This document shows, one piece after another, positions 1,184 to 11,889 of a stretch of DNA of 11,889 nucleotides (positions are counted from its first letter, which is position 1; the number at the start of each line of letters is the position of its first letter). Where the stretch lies: positions 1 to 11,889 of the forward strand of contig CBDUXP010000090.1 in NCBI GenBank assembly GCA_965371225.1. Reading direction: 5' to 3'. Origin of the DNA: CBDUXP01 sp965371225 [NCBI: uncultured bacterium]. GTDB taxonomy: Bacteria > Abyssobacteria > SURF-5 > CBDUXP01. The notes under the pieces are model-generated. The model had not been told where the DNA came from. It ran no database searches and saw only the letters and a list, made by a program, of their open reading frames with translations. The position numbers were made by a program, and so were the translations under genes.

Positions 1184-1241
1184 GCACGCGCTCGGGCGCC
1201 GTGGGCTGCGCAAGCAGGCGCCCGGAGAAGGGATACGAGCA

Positions 1242-2747
1242 ATGGCTGCTTGGGACCGCCTCACGGGCTTAGACGCGACCTTCCTCGAACTGGAGGACGG
1301 CAACGCGCACATGCACATCGGGGCGACGATGGTGTTCGAACCGGGGCCGCTGGTGGGCGCGGACGGGCGGCTGGACATCGAGCGCATTCGCCGCGCCGTG
1401 GCCGCCAAGCTCCACCTAGTGGCGCGGTACCGCCAGAAGCTGGCCTATGTCCCCCTGGAAGGGCACCCGGTCTGGGTGGACGACGACCAGTTCAACCTGG
1501 AGTACCACGTGCGGCTGACGGCGCTGCCCTACCCGGGCGGGCCGGACGAGCTGAAACGGCTGACGGCCCGGATCATGTCCCAGATGCTGGATCGCGGGAA
1601 GCCCCTCTGGGAGATTTGGATCGTCGAGGGGTTGCAGAGCGGCGGCTTCGCGATGATCAACAAGACGCACCACTGCATGGTCGACGGCATCAGCGGCAGC
1701 GATATCATCTCGACCCTGCTCGATCCCGATCCGCGCTTGCCCACCGGCCGGCCCCAGGCCTGGAAGCCGCGGCCGACGCCGCACGCCGTGAACTTGACGG
1801 CCGATGCGGTGCGGCATCGCCTCGAGCAACCGCTGGAACTGTTGCGCGCGACGCGGCGGGCCATTACGAATCCGATCACCACGCTGCGTGAGGCGCAAGC
1901 GGCGGTGCAGAGCGTGGCCCAGGCGGTGGCGCCGGGGCTCACCAAGGCCTCCGAGACACCCTTCAACGTGCCCATCGGGCCGCACCGGCAGATGGAATGG
2001 ACGTCCATGCCCCTGGCCCAAGTCAAGGCCGTCAAGGACGCGTTGGGCGGCACGGTGAACGACGTGGTGTTGGCGACGGTGGCGGGCGCGGTGCGCCGCT
2101 ACTTCAGGTACCGCCGGGTGCCCGTGCGGGATCTGGACTTCCGCGTGATGATCCCGGTCAGCGTGCGGACCAAGGGGGAGGAGGGCGCACTGGGCAACCG
2201 GGTGTCGCTCATGGTGGCGCCGCTGCCCATCGGCCTCAAATCGGCCGTGGAGCGGCTGCACGCCATCATCGCGACGACGAAGGACCTGAAGCGCAGCAAG
2301 CAGGCGGTGGGCGCTGAGCGGCTGACGAGCATGGCGGAGTGGGCGGTGCCGAATCTGATGGCCCAGGCCGCGCGCCTGGTCACGCGGGCGCGGGCGTTCA
2401 ACCTGGTGGTGACCAATGTGCCCGGCCCGCAAGTCACGCTGTACCTGGAGGGGGCCCGGATGGTGGCCTCCTATCCCGTCGTCCCCTTGACGCACAACAT
2501 GGCGTGCGGGGTCGCGCTGTTCAGTTACGACGGGACCCTGTACTGGGGCCTCAACGGCGACTGGGACGCCATGGCGGATATGGATCGGCTGATCCGGTTC
2601 GTGGGCGAGGCGTTCGACGAGCTGCAAACGGCGGCGGAGCACGTCAGCCGCCGGGAGACCGCGACGCCGGCGCCGCCCGCCCGGAAGCGCAAGCCCCGGC
2701 GTAAGAAGGTCGAGGCCGCCACGGCCGCGAACCGCAAGTCGGCCTAA
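1242..2747 (+). CDS. Wax ester synthase/diacylglycerol O-acyltransferase (WS/DGAT), first copy
   Basis: This 501-residue bifunctional acyltransferase would transfer an acyl group from acyl-CoA to a fatty alcohol or diacylglycerol, forming wax ester or triacylglycerol at the membrane/lipid-droplet surface. The catalytic motif HHCMVDG is at residues 143-149 (His144 is the expected base, Asp148 structural). Other family landmarks are GKPLWEIW just before it, NDVVLA from N273, and NVPGP at 392-396. The length fits the family (about 450-500). The frame is open far upstream, but ATG 1242 is chosen because GGAGAAGGG lies 9 nt upstream and the protein start M-x-x-W-D/E-R-L-T matches the paralogue downstream. 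Residues 476-501 form a Lys/Arg/Ala/Pro tail (RKRKPRRKK) beyond the catalytic core. It is divergent from the cyclase gene and 130 bp upstream of a second copy. Confidence 0.95.
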   Translation: MAAWDRLTGLDATFLELEDGNAHMHIGATMVFEPGPLVGADGRLDIERIRRAVAAKLHLVARYRQKLAYVPLEGHPVWVDDDQFNLEYHVRLTALPYPGGPDELKRLTARIMSQMLDRGKPLWEIWIVEGLQSGGFAMINKTHHCMVDGISGSDIISTLLDPDPRLPTGRPQAWKPRPTPHAVNLTADAVRHRLEQPLELLRATRRAITNPITTLREAQAAVQSVAQAVAPGLTKASETPFNVPIGPHRQMEWTSMPLAQVKAVKDALGGTVNDVVLATVAGAVRRYFRYRRVPVRDLDFRVMIPVSVRTKGEEGALGNRVSLMVAPLPIGLKSAVERLHAIIATTKDLKRSKQAVGAERLTSMAEWAVPNLMAQAARLVTRARAFNLVVTNVPGPQVTLYLEGARMVASYPVVPLTHNMACGVALFSYDGTLYWGLNGDWDAMADMDRLIRFVGEAFDELQTAAEHVSRRETATPAPPARKRKPRRKKVEAATAANRKSA

Positions 2748-2789
2748 GGAGCGGCCCGGCCCGCCGCCCGCGCATTTCGGGGCCGGTCA

Positions 2790-2798
2790 TGGTAGGGT
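2790..2798 (+). promoter_or_regulatory. Possible extended -10 promoter for the second WS/DGAT gene
   Basis: TGGTAGGGT has the TGn extension and a TAnnnT core, the same architecture as the element before the first copy. It would give a leader of about 75 nt. The intergenic region (2748-2877) also has a CCGGCCC / GGGCCGG inverted repeat at 2756-2762 and 2780-2786 without a T run, a possible but weak pause or terminator. A promoter of its own is plausible, though the two genes may also be co-transcribed. Confidence 0.35.
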
Positions 2799-2877
2799 AT
2801 GCGGGGACACAGAGAGTACCGCCGAGCGAGGGGTTAGGGACAGAAGCGCCAGGCGTGTGGGCGCGGGGGAATAGCGT

Positions 2878-4422
2878 ATGCCCTCTTGGGAGCGGTTGAC
2901 CGCGTTGGACGCGTCGTTCCTCGGTCTAGAAGACGGGGACCTCCACATGCACGTGGGCGCGACGCTCTCGTTCGAGCCCGGGTCCCTGGTCGGCCCGCAC
3001 GGCGAAGTGGATATCACGCGCATCCGGAAGGTGGTGGCGTCCAAGCTCCACCTGGTGCCGCGCTACCGGCAGCGGCTGGCAGCGATCCCCTACGAAGGCC
3101 ACCCCATCTGGATTGACGACGACCGGTTCAACATCGAGTACCACGTGCGGTTGACGGCGCTGCCGAAGCCCGGCGATGGGGACGAACTGATGCGACTGGC
3201 CGGGCGGATCATGTCGCAACAACTGGACCGCGGGAAGCCGCTGTGGGAAATGTGGGTGGTCGAAGGGGTGCAGGGCGGCGGCTTCGCCATCATCTGCAAG
3301 AACCACCACTGCATGATCGATGGCATCGCCGGCACCGACATCCTGACCGCCCTCCTCGACATGAATCCGGATCTGCGGGCCGGGCGGCCCAAGCCGTGGC
3401 GGCCGCGCCGCGCGCCCCACGCCATCAGCCTCGTGTCGAGCGCGCTGCTCCGGCGCATCGAAGCCCCGGCGGAATTCCTGCGGTCGACCCGCCGGGCGCT
3501 CCGCTCGCCCCGCAAACTGTTGCGCGATGCGGGGGACTACATCGAGAGCATTGGAGAAATTCTGGCGCCGGGCCTGAACGGGGGCTCACAGACGCCACTG
3601 AACGCCCAGATCGGGACGCACCGCCGCTTCCGTTGGCTGACGATGGACCTGGGGGAAGTGAAGGCGGTGAAGAACGCGTTGGGCGGCACGCTGAACGATG
3701 TGGTGCTCGCCACGGTGACCGGGATGTTGCGGCGCTTCTTCCGCCACCGGGGCATCGCCGTCGCCGGGCTGGACATCAAAGCGCTGGTGCCGGTCAGCGT
3801 GCGGCCGGATGCGGCCCGCGGGCAGATGGGCAATCAGATCGCCACGATGGTGGCGCCCCTGCCGCTGAAGTTGAAGACGGCGCGCGCGCGGTTGGCCGCC
3901 GTGCACAAGACGACGCAAGGCCTCAAGGAAAGCAAGCAAGCCATCGGCGCGGAACGGCTCGCGGCGGTGGCGGACTGGACGGTGCCGAACATCCTCGTGC
4001 AGGCCGTGCGCATTCAGACGCGCGCGCGGGCGTACAACCTGGTGGTGACCAACGTGCCGGGGCCACAGATTCCGCTGTACATGGACGGCGCGCGCATGAC
4101 CACCACCTATCCGTTGGTGCCGCTCTTGGGGCGGAACCAGTGCCTGGGCATCGCGCTGATGAGTTACAACGGCAAACTCTTCTGGGGCCTCAATGGCGAT
4201 TTCGAAGGCATGTCGGACCTGGACATGGTGGCGAAGTTTCTGCAAGCGGCCTTCGAGGAGCTGCAGGAAGCCGCCGGGATTCAGCCGGCGAAGGCGCCGC
4301 GCAAAGCCCAGGGGAAGCGCGCGGCCGCGAAACAGGCGGCGGCCGGCCATGCGCGACCCGCCGCCGCCGGGAAGCCGGGAGCGGCCGCGACAAACAAACC
4401 GTCCGCGGCGGCGTCCGGCTAA
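2878..4422 (+). CDS. Wax ester synthase/diacylglycerol O-acyltransferase (WS/DGAT), second copy
   Basis: A 514-residue paralogue of the preceding gene, with the same expected reaction. The catalytic HHCMIDG is again at 143-149, ND at 273-274 and NVPGP at 392-396. The two proteins therefore keep register at every landmark checked, and about 105 of the first 149 residues are identical by eye. Differences around the active site (CKNHH against NKTHH, EMWVVEGVQ against EIWIVEGLQ) are mostly conservative. The sequence diverges completely after about residue 469 into a 45-residue Ala/Lys/Pro/Gly tail (PAKAPRKAQGKR onwards), which is longer and less basic than the tail of the first copy. ATG 2878 has GGGGGA 7 nt upstream. 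Tandem duplication is the simplest origin. Different acyl or alcohol preferences would be the usual reason to keep both, but nothing here shows that. Confidence 0.95.
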   Translation: MPSWERLTALDASFLGLEDGDLHMHVGATLSFEPGSLVGPHGEVDITRIRKVVASKLHLVPRYRQRLAAIPYEGHPIWIDDDRFNIEYHVRLTALPKPGDGDELMRLAGRIMSQQLDRGKPLWEMWVVEGVQGGGFAIICKNHHCMIDGIAGTDILTALLDMNPDLRAGRPKPWRPRRAPHAISLVSSALLRRIEAPAEFLRSTRRALRSPRKLLRDAGDYIESIGEILAPGLNGGSQTPLNAQIGTHRRFRWLTMDLGEVKAVKNALGGTLNDVVLATVTGMLRRFFRHRGIAVAGLDIKALVPVSVRPDAARGQMGNQIATMVAPLPLKLKTARARLAAVHKTTQGLKESKQAIGAERLAAVADWTVPNILVQAVRIQTRARAYNLVVTNVPGPQIPLYMDGARMTTTYPLVPLLGRNQCLGIALMSYNGKLFWGLNGDFEGMSDLDMVAKFLQAAFEELQEAAGIQPAKAPRKAQGKRAAAKQAAAGHARPAAAGKPGAAATNKPSAAASG

Positions 4423-5221: not shown

Positions 5222-7306
5222 GTGCACGCGCAACCGGTCGACCGTTTGCCGGGACGTTCGGTGTCCTGGGCGGTGCTGTTTTTCCTGGTGCTCACCATCG
5301 TCTGTACGTGGCCGATGGCGCGGGACGTGCGCGACCACGTGCAGGATCGCGGCGACCCGCTGCTGCAAGTGGTGTTGTTGGCGTGGGCCACGGATGCGCT
5401 TTTGACGCCGGGCGATGCGTGGCTGGACACGCCGCAGTTCCACCCGTACCGCGACACCGGCGTGTACCAGACCAGCATGTTGGGCCAGGTGCCGCTCTTC
5501 GCGCCCGTGTACCGGCTGAGCGGGAACCCGGTGCTCGCGGTGCAGGCGAGCTTTCTCGCCACGCTGTTCCTCTCCGGCTTGTGCATGTGGGCGTACGTGC
5601 GGCGCATTACTGGGCTGTCCACGGCCGGATTGCTCGCGGGCCTGGTCTTCGCGTTTCACCAGTACCGGTTCCGCAACCTGCAACACATGCAGGTCATGAG
5701 CATCTGGTGGTGGCCGCTGGCCCTGTGGGCGCTGGAGGATTTCTTGACGACCCGCCGGTGGCGCAGTGCGCTGGCGTTGGGCGCGTGCGCCGTTGGGCAA
5801 CTGTACTGCTCCGTGTACATGACGTTCATGCTCGGGCTCATCGTGGGCATACGCTGCGTCGTCGAGTGCGTAGCGGAACCCGGGCGGCTCAGCGACCGGA
5901 CGCTCTGGCGCCGCGGGGGGCTGGTGCTGCTCCTCGCCGGCGTGGCCGTGGCGCCGCTCCTGCTGGCGTACCTGCGCGTGGCGCGGCAATTCCCCCCCGC
6001 GCACGATCTGGACACCATCGTGCAGTTCAGCGCGGCGCCGCGCGACTACCTGCGCGTCGGGCTGAGCAGCGTGCCGTATTACTGGCTGCGTGCGCGCGCA
6101 GCCTGGCAGTACACGTTCGAGCAGCACGTGCTGTTTCCCGGGCTGGTCCCCGTGGCGCTGGCCCTGTACGGCTTCGTGGCGGCGGAAGCCCTCGGCCGCC
6201 GCACGCAGGGCGCCGGGCAGGCTATCCGGCGGCGGGCATTCAGTCTGGTGCTGACCGCCGCGCTGGGCATCGTGCTCAGCCTGGGGCCCTACCTGAAGTA
6301 CGGCGGCCAGGCGACGGACATTCCTCTGCCCGCCTTCGCGCTCCTCACGTACGTGCCGGGCTACGCCATCTTCCGCGTAAATACCCGGTTCGCGTTCCTG
6401 CTCTTGTTCGCGCTCAGCATTGGCGTGGGGCGCGCGTATGCGGCGCTCGCCACGCGCCCCACCCTGTCCGACCGGGGCCGGAAACTCCTTTTCGGCGGCA
6501 TCGCCGCCCTGCTCCTCCTGGAAAACTGGAACGCGCCGGTGCCGACCGTGCGCGTGCCGGTGGGTGACGACCTCCCGCCGGTCTACGCCGCGCTCGCGGA
6601 GGAGGCGACCGGGCGCGGGCCGGTGCTGCACGTACCGTTCGGCCGGAACCTCTATGAAGAGATCGAGCGGGTGTACGGCGGCCTGCGCCACCGGCGCCCC
6701 ATGGTGAACGGGTACAGCACGGTGCAGCCGCCGGGCTATCTGCAACTGGCGGCGCTGGCGCGCCGGGGCCCCACGCCGGCGTTCCTCACCGCGGCGGTCG
6801 GCATCAACGCGGACACCCTCGTCGTCCACTACGACGCGATGCCACCGGCAGAGGCGGCGCGGTGGCGCGCCGCGCGCATGCGAACGGGCATCCATGTGGT
6901 ACGCGAGTTCGCGGGCGTCGACGTGTGGAAGCTCGCCCTCGACCGCACCTTTCTGGACCAACCTGTTGCCCGCCTCAGCGTGCCGCCCCTCGCCGCCGGC
7001 GCGACGGCCACGGTCCCCCTGCGCTTCTCGACGCCTCCGCAGACCGCCTGGCGGTGTCCGCGGCCGCTAGGCCAGCGCGACGCCACGGTCACGTGGCAGC
7101 CGCTGGGCAGCGGCGCGCTCGTCGAGGAACCGACGCGGGTGCGGGTGCCGCTTTTCGTCGTGTGGACGCAACCCATGGAGGTTCCCCTGCGGCTGCACGC
7201 GCCCCTCCTGCCCGGTGAGTACACGCTGCGGGTGGATTGCGGCGTGGCCGTGGCGGAAGCGCCGGTCCAGGTCCTGCCACCGCGGGCACCCGACGCCGCC
7301 GGCTAG
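5222..7306 (+). CDS. Polytopic membrane protein with GT-C glycosyltransferase-like architecture, function unknown
   Basis: This is a 694-residue protein. The first 435 residues carry about ten to eleven hydrophobic segments (for example 15-34, 104-125, 132-147, 160-172, 182-212, 232-250, 304-322, 341-357, 366-380, 390-410, 421-434). The first loop after segment 1 has a D42-x-x-D45-P pair followed by HPYRDTGVYQTSMLGQVP, and HQYRFRNLQHMQ lies at 146-157. This arrangement recalls GT-C enzymes, which use lipid-linked sugars and place an acidic motif in the first outer loop, and a set of uncharacterised bacterial membrane proteins of this style. I cannot name a substrate. Residues 436-694 are soluble. 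They include a mixed segment with RRPMVNGYS (491-499) and a final beta-rich, Pro-rich part from about 580. The GTG start is set by the TACAAT element 9 nt upstream and by segment 1 beginning near residue 15. It runs convergent to the next gene. Confidence 0.85.
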   Translation: MHAQPVDRLPGRSVSWAVLFFLVLTIVCTWPMARDVRDHVQDRGDPLLQVVLLAWATDALLTPGDAWLDTPQFHPYRDTGVYQTSMLGQVPLFAPVYRLSGNPVLAVQASFLATLFLSGLCMWAYVRRITGLSTAGLLAGLVFAFHQYRFRNLQHMQVMSIWWWPLALWALEDFLTTRRWRSALALGACAVGQLYCSVYMTFMLGLIVGIRCVVECVAEPGRLSDRTLWRRGGLVLLLAGVAVAPLLLAYLRVARQFPPAHDLDTIVQFSAAPRDYLRVGLSSVPYYWLRARAAWQYTFEQHVLFPGLVPVALALYGFVAAEALGRRTQGAGQAIRRRAFSLVLTAALGIVLSLGPYLKYGGQATDIPLPAFALLTYVPGYAIFRVNTRFAFLLLFALSIGVGRAYAALATRPTLSDRGRKLLFGGIAALLLLENWNAPVPTVRVPVGDDLPPVYAALAEEATGRGPVLHVPFGRNLYEEIERVYGGLRHRRPMVNGYSTVQPPGYLQLAALARRGPTPAFLTAAVGINADTLVVHYDAMPPAEAARWRAARMRTGIHVVREFAGVDVWKLALDRTFLDQPVARLSVPPLAAGATATVPLRFSTPPQTAWRCPRPLGQRDATVTWQPLGSGALVEEPTRVRVPLFVVWTQPMEVPLRLHAPLLPGEYTLRVDCGVAVAEAPVQVLPPRAPDAAG

Positions 7307-7333
7307 CAGGCGCGGCACGGCTACGCGTCTGTC

Positions 7334-7426
7334 CGACCGTGCGGGCGAATACAAGATTCGCCCCTACCTCGGAGCACATGGACCTGGGATCATCGTAGGG
7401 GCGATCCTTGTGATCGCCCACGTTCG
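7334..7426. repeat. Inverted pair of palindromic repeats (REPIN/BIME-like element)
   Basis: Two hairpin units face each other between convergent genes. Unit 1 is GGGCGAAT (7343-7350), loop ACAAG (7351-7355), ATTCGCCC (7356-7363), then CTAC. Unit 2 is GTAG, GGGCGATC (7399-7406), loop CTTGT (7407-7411), GATCGCCC (7412-7419). Read on the other strand, unit 2 has the same ACAAG loop and the same trailing CCTAC. The outer flanks also match (CGACCGTG on the left, CGAACGTG when the right side is reversed). The units differ at stem positions 7 and 8, but both arms changed together. A conserved loop, conserved tail, variable but paired stem and head-to-head order are what REP-pair elements show. The element may also act as a bidirectional terminator for the two converging genes. 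Whether it occurs elsewhere in the genome cannot be seen here. Confidence 0.7.
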
Positions 7427-7445
7427 CACACCCGGCGAACGGCCC

Positions 7446-8186
7446 CTATGAATCTACTGGCGGCGATTCCTCAGGATCCGCATCGCTCGCCGCCGGGGGC
7501 CGAATGGGGATGGCGAGTGCCAGGAGCGCGGCCGCCGCAGCGCCCACGATGCCGAACAGCACGCGGTGAAACCAGTCGGACCACCGGGGTGCGGCATCGG
7601 GTTCCTGGTGCGCGTGACCGGAGTGGTCGCCCGCATCTTGCGCGTCATGCGCGTCCGCGTCGGGCGCCGGCGCCTCAGGGGGATCGGACGCGTCGTCGCC
7701 CCGGATCTTGGCGAGCGCCTTCAGCATCTGGACATCATCCGCGTCCAGCTCCATCTGTCGTTCTAGCCGCGCCCGCGCCGCGGCCGACTGGGAACTTTCC
7801 GCCGACTCCGCAAAGGCGTTGTGGAAACGGCTGTCCACGATCGCGTGGACGCCCAGCCCGAGCACCAGGCCTATGAGCAGGCCGGCGGCTTGGTAGCGCG
7901 CTCGCGTCTTTTGTGCCTGTTCATACGCCAACTCCACCGCCGCCGACCAGGGGCGCGCGCGCAAGATGTCGCGCACCGTGCGCAGCACGACGATCGTGCC
8001 GACGATCAGGCAGCCGAGCTGGATCGTAGCGGCGGGACCGGCATCCATGGACGCCTTCTCGTGCGCGTGCTGGGCCCAGGCGGCGGGCACACCCAGAAGC
8101 CCCGCGCCCGCGACGCCAAGGAGGGCCCTCCAGGCCGGCGGCCACGGCGCGCGGCGGCGGGTCTGTTCACGGGGAGGACGCTGCAT
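7446..8186 (-). CDS. Uncharacterised membrane protein with His/Asp-rich loop
   Basis: I do not recognise this 246-residue protein. A basic N-terminus (residues 1-20) is followed by a hydrophobic stretch ending in AWA at 36-38, then Q39. This could be a signal peptide cut after Ala38 or a first membrane anchor. Further hydrophobic segments lie at about 54-70, 100-117 and 205-228. Between the last two is a charged, probably helical stretch (120-160), then an acidic, His-containing loop at 173-199 with His180, 188, 191 and 193 among many Asp residues. A second HAH triplet (40-42) follows the putative cleavage site and mirrors the HAH at 191-193, so metal binding is a reasonable guess and no more. 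The start at ATG 8186 is supported by a strong promoter 9 nt upstream rather than by a ribosome binding site. It lies 71 bp downstream of the kinase on the same strand. Confidence 0.75.
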   Translation of the reverse strand: MQRPPREQTRRRAPWPPAWRALLGVAGAGLLGVPAAWAQHAHEKASMDAGPAATIQLGCLIVGTIVVLRTVRDILRARPWSAAVELAYEQAQKTRARYQAAGLLIGLVLGLGVHAIVDSRFHNAFAESAESSQSAAARARLERQMELDADDVQMLKALAKIRGDDASDPPEAPAPDADAHDAQDAGDHSGHAHQEPDAAPRWSDWFHRVLFGIVGAAAAALLALAIPIRPPAASDADPEESPPVDS

Positions 8187-11526: not shown

Positions 11527-11889
11527 GACGGCGGGAGTCGGGCTGTAAGCCGGGTTCTGTCTAGGGGCCATGCCCCCGAGACGGTCATTCCTCTGGGACG
11601 TGCGTCGCCGCACGCCTCAAGCGTCCAACCCACCGGCGGTGTGGGCCACACCAGTGCCGGCCTATTTGGACTTGCTCCCGGTGGGGTTTGCCCAGCCGAC
11701 CGGTCACCCGGCCGCTGGTGCGCTCTTACCGCACCATTTCACCCTTACCGCGGGACCGACGCGTCGGTGTCGACCTTGCCGGGCAAGGCCGCCCCGCGGC
11801 GGTATCGTTTCTGTGGCACTGTCCGTCGGGTCACCCCGCCTTGGCGTTACCAAGCACCGTGCCCTGTGGAGCCCGGACTTTCCTCGACG
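11527..11889 (-). ncRNA. rnpB: RNase P RNA, bacterial A type (5' end beyond right edge)
   Basis: This is the catalytic RNA of ribonuclease P, which matures the 5' ends of tRNAs. Reading the minus strand, GAGGAAAGTCCGGGCTCC is at 11885-11868. The long conserved core GGTAAGGGTGAAA...GGTGCGGTAAGAGCGCACC follows, then GGGAGCAAGTCCAAATAGG, GAGGAATGACCGTC and ACAGAACCCGGCTTACA near the 3' end. These are the hallmark conserved blocks of bacterial RNase P RNA, in the right order and spacing. The 5' strands of P1-P3 that come before the first block are outside the window, probably a few tens of bases. The L15 loop that contacts the tRNA 3' CCA reads GGGCAAAC where E. coli has CGGTAAAC. The exact 3' end is estimated from the T run. 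Confidence 0.96.

Follow-up and report, generated by a model that had tools for sequence, protein, structure and literature searches.

Introduction

The closest described relatives of the repeat analysed here are the GTAG-tagged REPs, a super-family whose members, according to the text of Di Nocera et al. (2013; PMC3733652), have a GTAG beside a short GC-rich stem, alternative complementary residues within that stem, inverted dimers, many copies, and a RAYT gene nearby. Most of the loops described there are very short, many families having only 2-3 bases. The same text treats the REPINs of P. fluorescens as head-to-head (HH) dimers, also reports families richer in tail-to-tail (TT) pairs, and mentions other families in which HH partners differ in stem sequence. 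REPINs themselves are presented in the text of Bertels and Rainey (2011; PMC3116915) as inverted doublets that are able to co-fold and are linked to RAYTs. A further relative is subclass 2.4 of TnpA_Y1, equivalent to RAYT group 4, which the text of Quentin et al. (2018; PMC6006769) characterizes by three G-C pairs at the stem base, single- and double-foot types, a scattered occurrence over phyla, and REPs lying within the tnpA_REP gene in the interval from HuH to Y. Cutting has been followed in vitro for the group 3 REP of S. maltophilia and TnpA_Sm, and the text of Corneloup et al. (2021; PMC8266576) reports that TnpA_REP cuts the single-stranded REP and not its complement, that GTAG is required, and that the loop letters of these 8-bp-stem REPs are critical.

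The locus compared here with these systems is a repeat pair in a stretch of 11,889 nt (the window) of contig CBDUXP010000090.1 (GCA_965371225.1), from the uncultured bacterium CBDUXP01 sp965371225. Its units resemble the S. maltophilia group 3 REP in having GTAG and a perfect 8-bp stem, but that REP has a three-base GCT loop and belongs to another RAYT group, whereas the window units carry the five-base loop CTTGT. This loop is unnamed in the text of PMC3733652, the part of that paper that our comparison covers. The kind of element is already known, and the CTTGT family may be among the 24 consensuses of Figure 1 in that paper.

Results

The window contains two perfect hairpin units. Unit 1 (7343-7367, minus strand) is the 25-mer GTAGGGGCGAATCTTGTATTCGCCC, with its GTAG tag at 7364-7367 and the stem GGGCGAAT/ATTCGCCC; unit 2 (7395-7419, plus strand) is the 25-mer GTAGGGGCGATCCTTGTGATCGCCC, with its tag at 7395-7398 and the stem GGGCGATC/GATCGCCC. 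Both follow the layout GTAG, 8-bp stem, CTTGT loop, stem, 25 bases in all, and so present GTAG at the foot of a short GC-rich hairpin in the manner of the GTAG-tagged REPs. When up to 3 mismatches were allowed, a scan of the window for GTAGGGGCGNNNCTTGTNNNCGCCC returned 2 matches, compared to a mean of 0.01 in shuffled sequences, and two matches were obtained in 0 of 200 shuffles, which bears out the earlier observation, made from the sequence alone, of two hairpin units sharing loop and tail in opposite orientation. Folded as single-stranded DNA, the units reach -9.0 and -9.5 kcal/mol (z about -6), and the 77-nt stretch 7343-7419 can also fold as a single long hairpin (-21.5 kcal/mol, z -4.7). 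The pair was originally placed at 7334-7426; it is indeed there, but it occupies only 7343-7419 and the remainder is a few flanking bases. Two ORFs converge on the pair from either side (5222-7306 on the plus strand and 7446-8186 on the minus strand), and it lies in the 139-bp gap (7307-7445) between their 3′ ends. Two short unrelated inverted repeats, GCACGG/CCGTGC and CGTTCGC/GCGAACG, bracket the pair at 7315-7342 and 7421-7441 (located by eye). An Rfam scan of the window gave no match at gathering score across 7343-7419; its only match was a bacterial class A RNase P RNA at 11530-11889 on the minus strand, which runs off the window end. There is no RAYT among the seven main ORFs of the window.

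The GTAG tags of the two units face each other across a 27-bp spacer (7368-7394). The sequence-only reading had called the pair head-to-head; in the terms used in the text of PMC3733652, tails pointing inward make it tail-to-tail. That reading had also proposed compensatory changes in the stem. Stem positions 7-8 do differ between the units, with both arms altered and pairing kept in each (AAT/ATT versus ATC/GAT), but both 25-mers were found letter for letter elsewhere, so that a local compensatory event is not required. We therefore dropped local co-evolution as an explanation of the AAT/ATC difference; the two stem versions were probably inherited as two sub-variants.

Exact matches to GTAGGGGCGNNNCTTGTNNNCGCCC were present in at least 119 genome-contig stretches and in 58 viral-contig stretches. 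Among the matches listed, the record names included Deltaproteobacteria, Gammaproteobacteria, Chloroflexi, Acidobacteria, Bacteroidetes genera, Clostridia, Planctomycetota, Verrucomicrobiota, Nitrospirota, Gemmatimonadota, Latescibacterota, Zixibacteriota, a Parcubacterium and others. Because many of the source genomes are MAGs, individual attributions may in some cases be binning errors, but the matches listed also include Flavonifractor plautii ATCC 29863, Hymenobacter isolates and the complete chromosome of Candidatus Uabimicrobium amorphum. Copy number was 2-361 in each of 50 genomes (up to 2 mismatches), compared to 0-4 for a reversed-pattern control; these 50 were part of 92 genomes drawn from the matched loci and hence chosen for a match. 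We also examined genomes not selected by match. At least one match occurred in 35 of 148 genomes from the phylum of G018, Deltaproteobacteria bacterium NC_groundwater_1542, and three or more in 19 (this sample includes G018 and G033 from the match-chosen set), while in the class of G198 the corresponding numbers were 41 of 148 and 9. Genomes with one or two matches are partly due to chance, judging by the control columns. The same unit in at least 119 genome stretches and in many copies per genome argues for a repeat family instead of a local terminator, and the environmental sequences with a GTAGGGGC edge and a CTTGT loop that the sequence-only reading mentioned exist among the matched genome stretches. 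One viral contig (L014) has exact CTTGT REPs at 48, 1405 and 2922, next to tailed-phage late genes identified with Pfam (terminase large subunit, P22-type coat protein, amidase), so the repeat is present in phage DNA too. A literature search with the GTAGGGGCG string listed no match that concerned bacterial repeats, judged by title, and searches of the same library with five stem-loop strings of the family and with five REP-derived peptides returned no match.

Both window variants recur together in two other genomes. At L285, a locus of G018 (the genome that also holds L079), the two window 25-mers are present letter for letter, one each, in HH arrangement inside the RAYT gene of a REPtron. 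The second genome, G307, which is from the class of G198 and belongs to the broad group of the window, has 86 copies including both exact window variants. We fetched 16 of its REP places and found two units within 150 bp in 13 of them, all HH, with spacers of 17 bp in 7 pairs and 21 bp in 6. Each of these doublets has one ATC-type unit; the partner is AAT-type in 11 and AAG/ATT or CAG/CTT in two. The other three places hold single units, two of them less than 300 bp from a contig end. No CTTGT REP was present, at up to 4 mismatches, at the four RAYT-like regions fetched from G307, and the cognate enzyme of that genome was thus not found there. The window also contains two adjoining wax ester synthase/diacylglycerol acyltransferase (WS/DGAT) genes (1221-4422), apparently a tandem duplication, whose first 300 bases are 73% alike. 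The best matches of the second WS/DGAT protein, in the class of G198, had 55 and 57% identity, which makes these relatives too distant for a same-site comparison, and the histidine kinase, when used as a probe for relatives, matched only through its C-terminal kinase part.

To what extent the stem is conserved can be read from the three stem pairs that GTAGGGGCGNNNCTTGTNNNCGCCC leaves free. All three were Watson-Crick in 119 of 145 exact matches (the genome matches listed plus the window), among which the two window versions, AAT/ATT and ATC/GAT, occurred 9 and 11 times, respectively. Among the matches listed there were 31 distinct arm pairs, and 82% of their cells pair, compared to 34% (maximum 51%) when the 3′ arms were redealt, indicating that pairing is maintained while the letters vary. 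This is the complementary stem variation described for GTAG-tagged REPs, and it agrees with the stem covariation that the sequence-only reading had led us to tabulate. The further claim that the hairpin, and not the exact sequence, is maintained was too strong: stem pairing is kept, but foot and loop are constant and mainly the inner stem pairs vary. As the pattern itself fixes foot and loop, part of the evidence for their constancy comes from the loops counted near RAYT genes, given below.

The orientation of neighbouring units bears on whether the window pair is a REPIN. Among the matches listed, the genome loci contained 179 family elements forming 55 adjacent pairs within 150 bp, of which 41 were HH, 8 TT and 6 head-to-tail (HT), and the viral loci contained 117 elements forming 31 pairs (23 HH, 3 TT, 5 HT). 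The excess of HH over TT was significant in both sets (p = 2e-6 for the listed genome matches; p = 9e-5 for the viral loci). HH partners differed in stem sequence in 31 of the 41 listed genome pairs. The HH doublets of G307 fit the REPIN as described in PMC3116915, a repeated HH doublet with GTAG outside, but the window doublet is oriented oppositely. The likeness to REPINs proposed from the sequence thus holds for the family, which forms inverted REP doublets, and fails for the window pair, which is of the TT minority type; we conclude that it is two REPs and not a REPIN in the strict sense. One could suppose instead that the TT pair is itself a mobile doublet, a REPIN of inverse layout. TT pairs do occur in the numbers just given, two viral contigs (L033 and L048) have one TT pair in common with the same spacer, and the text of PMC3733652 includes families in which TT exceeds HH. 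We nevertheless regard this as very unlikely, given the predominance of HH in both sets, the arrangement in G307, where the same two variants are HH in 13 of 13 pairs with 17- or 21-bp spacers, and the variable spacers of TT pairs outside arrays and the L033/L048 pair (judged by eye). Where HH doublets stand in arrays, as at L245, the TT pairs mark the joints from one doublet to the next. No relics of outer HH partners were seen beside the window pair: the best candidate on either side agreed at 12 of the 19 fixed letters, and 154 and 126 of 300 shuffles, respectively, reached the same score.

In other genomes the repeat occurs with RAYT/Y1 genes, as the sequence-only reading had suggested looking for. 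PF01797 was present in 41 of the 50 REP-bearing genomes, and near PF01797 genes we found REPtrons in which Y1 genes are flanked by, and contain, CTTGT, CTCGT or CACGT REPs. From an alignment of five REPtron proteins picked for their REPs we built a profile, A2, which at 1e-10 matched in 30 of the 50 genomes; two of these, Flavonifractor and a Polyangiaceae genome, had no PF01797 match. The profile matched the solved TnpA_REP chain 4er8 at 1.5e-7, compared to an E value of 0.077 for the L285 protein alone; the L285 and L262 proteins scored 20.8 and 20.7 bits against Pfam (cut-off 23). Four of eight scanned Y1 proteins passed the cut-off of the NCBIfam REP-associated tyrosine transposase model, and the four A2 seeds among the eight missed it (60 to 73 bits versus 80). 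We then collected 89 distinct near-full-length A2-type genes (E < 1e-20, covering 140 or more of the 173 profile positions), five of which are the seeds. Of the 89, 81 had a GTAGGG hairpin with any loop in the gene or no more than 300 bp away, and 71 had one inside, at a density of 2.64/kb versus 0.17/kb elsewhere in the same loci. For 52 RAYT genes fetched by protein alone, a hairpin was nearby in 50 and inside the gene in 48; the CTTGT loop occurred in only 5 of these 52, and the rest carry related hairpins with other loops. Within tnpA_REP, 118 of 121 internal elements, from 67 genes that are relatives, were in-frame REPs between the HuH and Y motifs. The features of subclass 2.4 named above were all found in the REPtrons examined, an assignment made by shared features and not with the profile of the PMC6006769 authors.

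Genomes with three or more REPs had an A2-type RAYT significantly more often than the others, both in the phylum of G018 (12 of 19 versus 23 of 129; p = 9e-5) and in the class of G198 (9 of 9 versus 31 of 139; p = 4e-6), at E limits of 1e-20 and 1e-10 and with p values uncorrected for kinship; one of the nine (G301) has three matches that look chance-like. Seven of the 19 REP-rich genomes in the phylum of G018 had no A2-type match (G033, G103, G113, G138, G145, G167 and G181). A TTTAT-loop variant makes up most of the REP places listed for G103, G138 and G167, and the REPtron of G033 contains another RAYT type. A second RAYT type (L249 and L239; also L280) is surrounded by CTTGT and TTTAT REPs whose stems are mainly GGGG, and L249 and L239 are nearer to the NCBIfam REP transposase model, whose cut-off they pass with 115 and 88.9 bits. 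The window units might on this account be REPs of the second type and not of the A2-type clade, the more so as some REP-rich genomes have no A2-type match. This is highly improbable: the CTTGT units of L249 and L239 have neither an AAT nor an ATC stem, and the exact window variants occur in REPtrons of the A2-type group formed by L285 and its tree neighbours L262, L293 and L311 (91% SH-aLRT), the latter three carrying AAC, AAT and ATC versions.

On a quick maximum-likelihood tree of the 89 A2-type proteins, each protein was labelled with the loop class of the REPs belonging to its gene (five-base 20, six-base 24, short 31, other 6, none 8). Support was below 80% on 42 of 86 inner branches. Loop class changed 12 times on the tree versus 48 in shuffles, and 0 of 200 shuffles were as low, a test that near-copies inflate. 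The five- and six-base classes fell together in one 47-row group (90% SH-aLRT) spanning several phyla. These results demonstrate that loop class tracks RAYT phylogeny. We found no description of loop classes or of their link to the RAYT tree in the text of PMC6006769, and no report of such a link in the parts of the REP/RAYT literature that we covered. The five- and six-base loops are mostly C-(N2-3)-G-T. With hairpins parsed to a fixed 8-bp stem and the seeds excluded, the first and next-to-last loop bases could pair in 25 of 25 five-base and 42 of 43 six-base gene-loop combinations; C and G are nearly invariant in the six-base class, which indicates conservation more than covariation. The final loop base was T in 16 of the 25 and 42 of the 43 combinations, respectively; for the six of the 25 five-base combinations with a terminal A, a ninth stem pair is the better reading. 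GTAG/CTAC was found at both feet in 10 of 20 genes in palindromic-loop lineages versus 3 of 55 in others.

Discussion

The dispersed copies, the preserved stem pairing and the association with RAYT genes lead us to identify the window units, with considerable confidence, as single-foot GTAG-tagged REPs with a CTTGT loop; a RAYT whose gene lies at another place in the genome probably deposited them. From their sequence features, the RAYTs serving this family probably resemble subclass 2.4. A different reading, that the pair is a local bidirectional terminator or mRNA 3′-end hairpin for the convergent genes with no link to mobile DNA, is hardly credible in spite of its place between those genes, its stable hairpins and one terminator-like match overlapping unit 1, since neither REP hairpin is followed by a T run, that sole match in the consensus scan (0.1 in shuffles) uses another 6-pair stem, the fixed GTAG tag and loop would be superfluous for termination, and identical 25-mers turn up in other, unrelated genomes and in different contexts.

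For the GTAG-tagged REPs identified here, we propose by analogy with the assayed systems that the RAYT (TnpA_REP, a HuH/tyrosine single-strand nuclease) would bind the folded single strand of one orientation, would read the GTAG foot and the loop, leaving the inner stem letters free if paired, and would cut next to the hairpin and paste the hairpin or doublet elsewhere. A fixed foot and loop, a paired but free inner stem, and a loop class that goes with the enzyme clade are the imprint expected from such reading. The TT pair of the window is best taken as two REPs remaining after juxtaposition or partial loss of HH doublets, which may now be inert or act as 3′-end hairpins between the convergent genes.

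More tentatively, the REP loop could be a heritable recognition code in this RAYT lineage, a possibility that we consider rather doubtful. Under this hypothesis, the C-G pair within the loop would lengthen the stem to nine pairs, with a single base, usually T, staying unpaired on the 3′ side, and the asymmetry of the bulged base could show the enzyme which strand it holds. With the RAYT gene holding its own target in frame, code and reader would move jointly between phyla, which would account for one hairpin sequence across many phyla.

By itself the window pair is ordinary mobile-repeat material. The family is a large natural set of RAYT/REP pairs that show joint variation of enzyme, stem and loop, and this variation makes REP recognition and spread testable in enzymes beyond the proteobacterial ones whose assays are described in the text of PMC8266576. 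The repeats also call for caution in annotation, as they enter ORFs and give peptides such as HKDRPY. In the window this happens in an ORF that is probably spurious (7089-7421, minus strand) and translates unit 2 as GDHKDRPY, and similar peptides lie inside RAYT genes. In G307, a RAYT-like ORF of 324 aa (L403, 1902-2873) has, between HuH and Y, a REP-derived segment of about 40 aa that is itself repeated about three times, and from its sequence the internal REP looks as if it had been expanded in frame.
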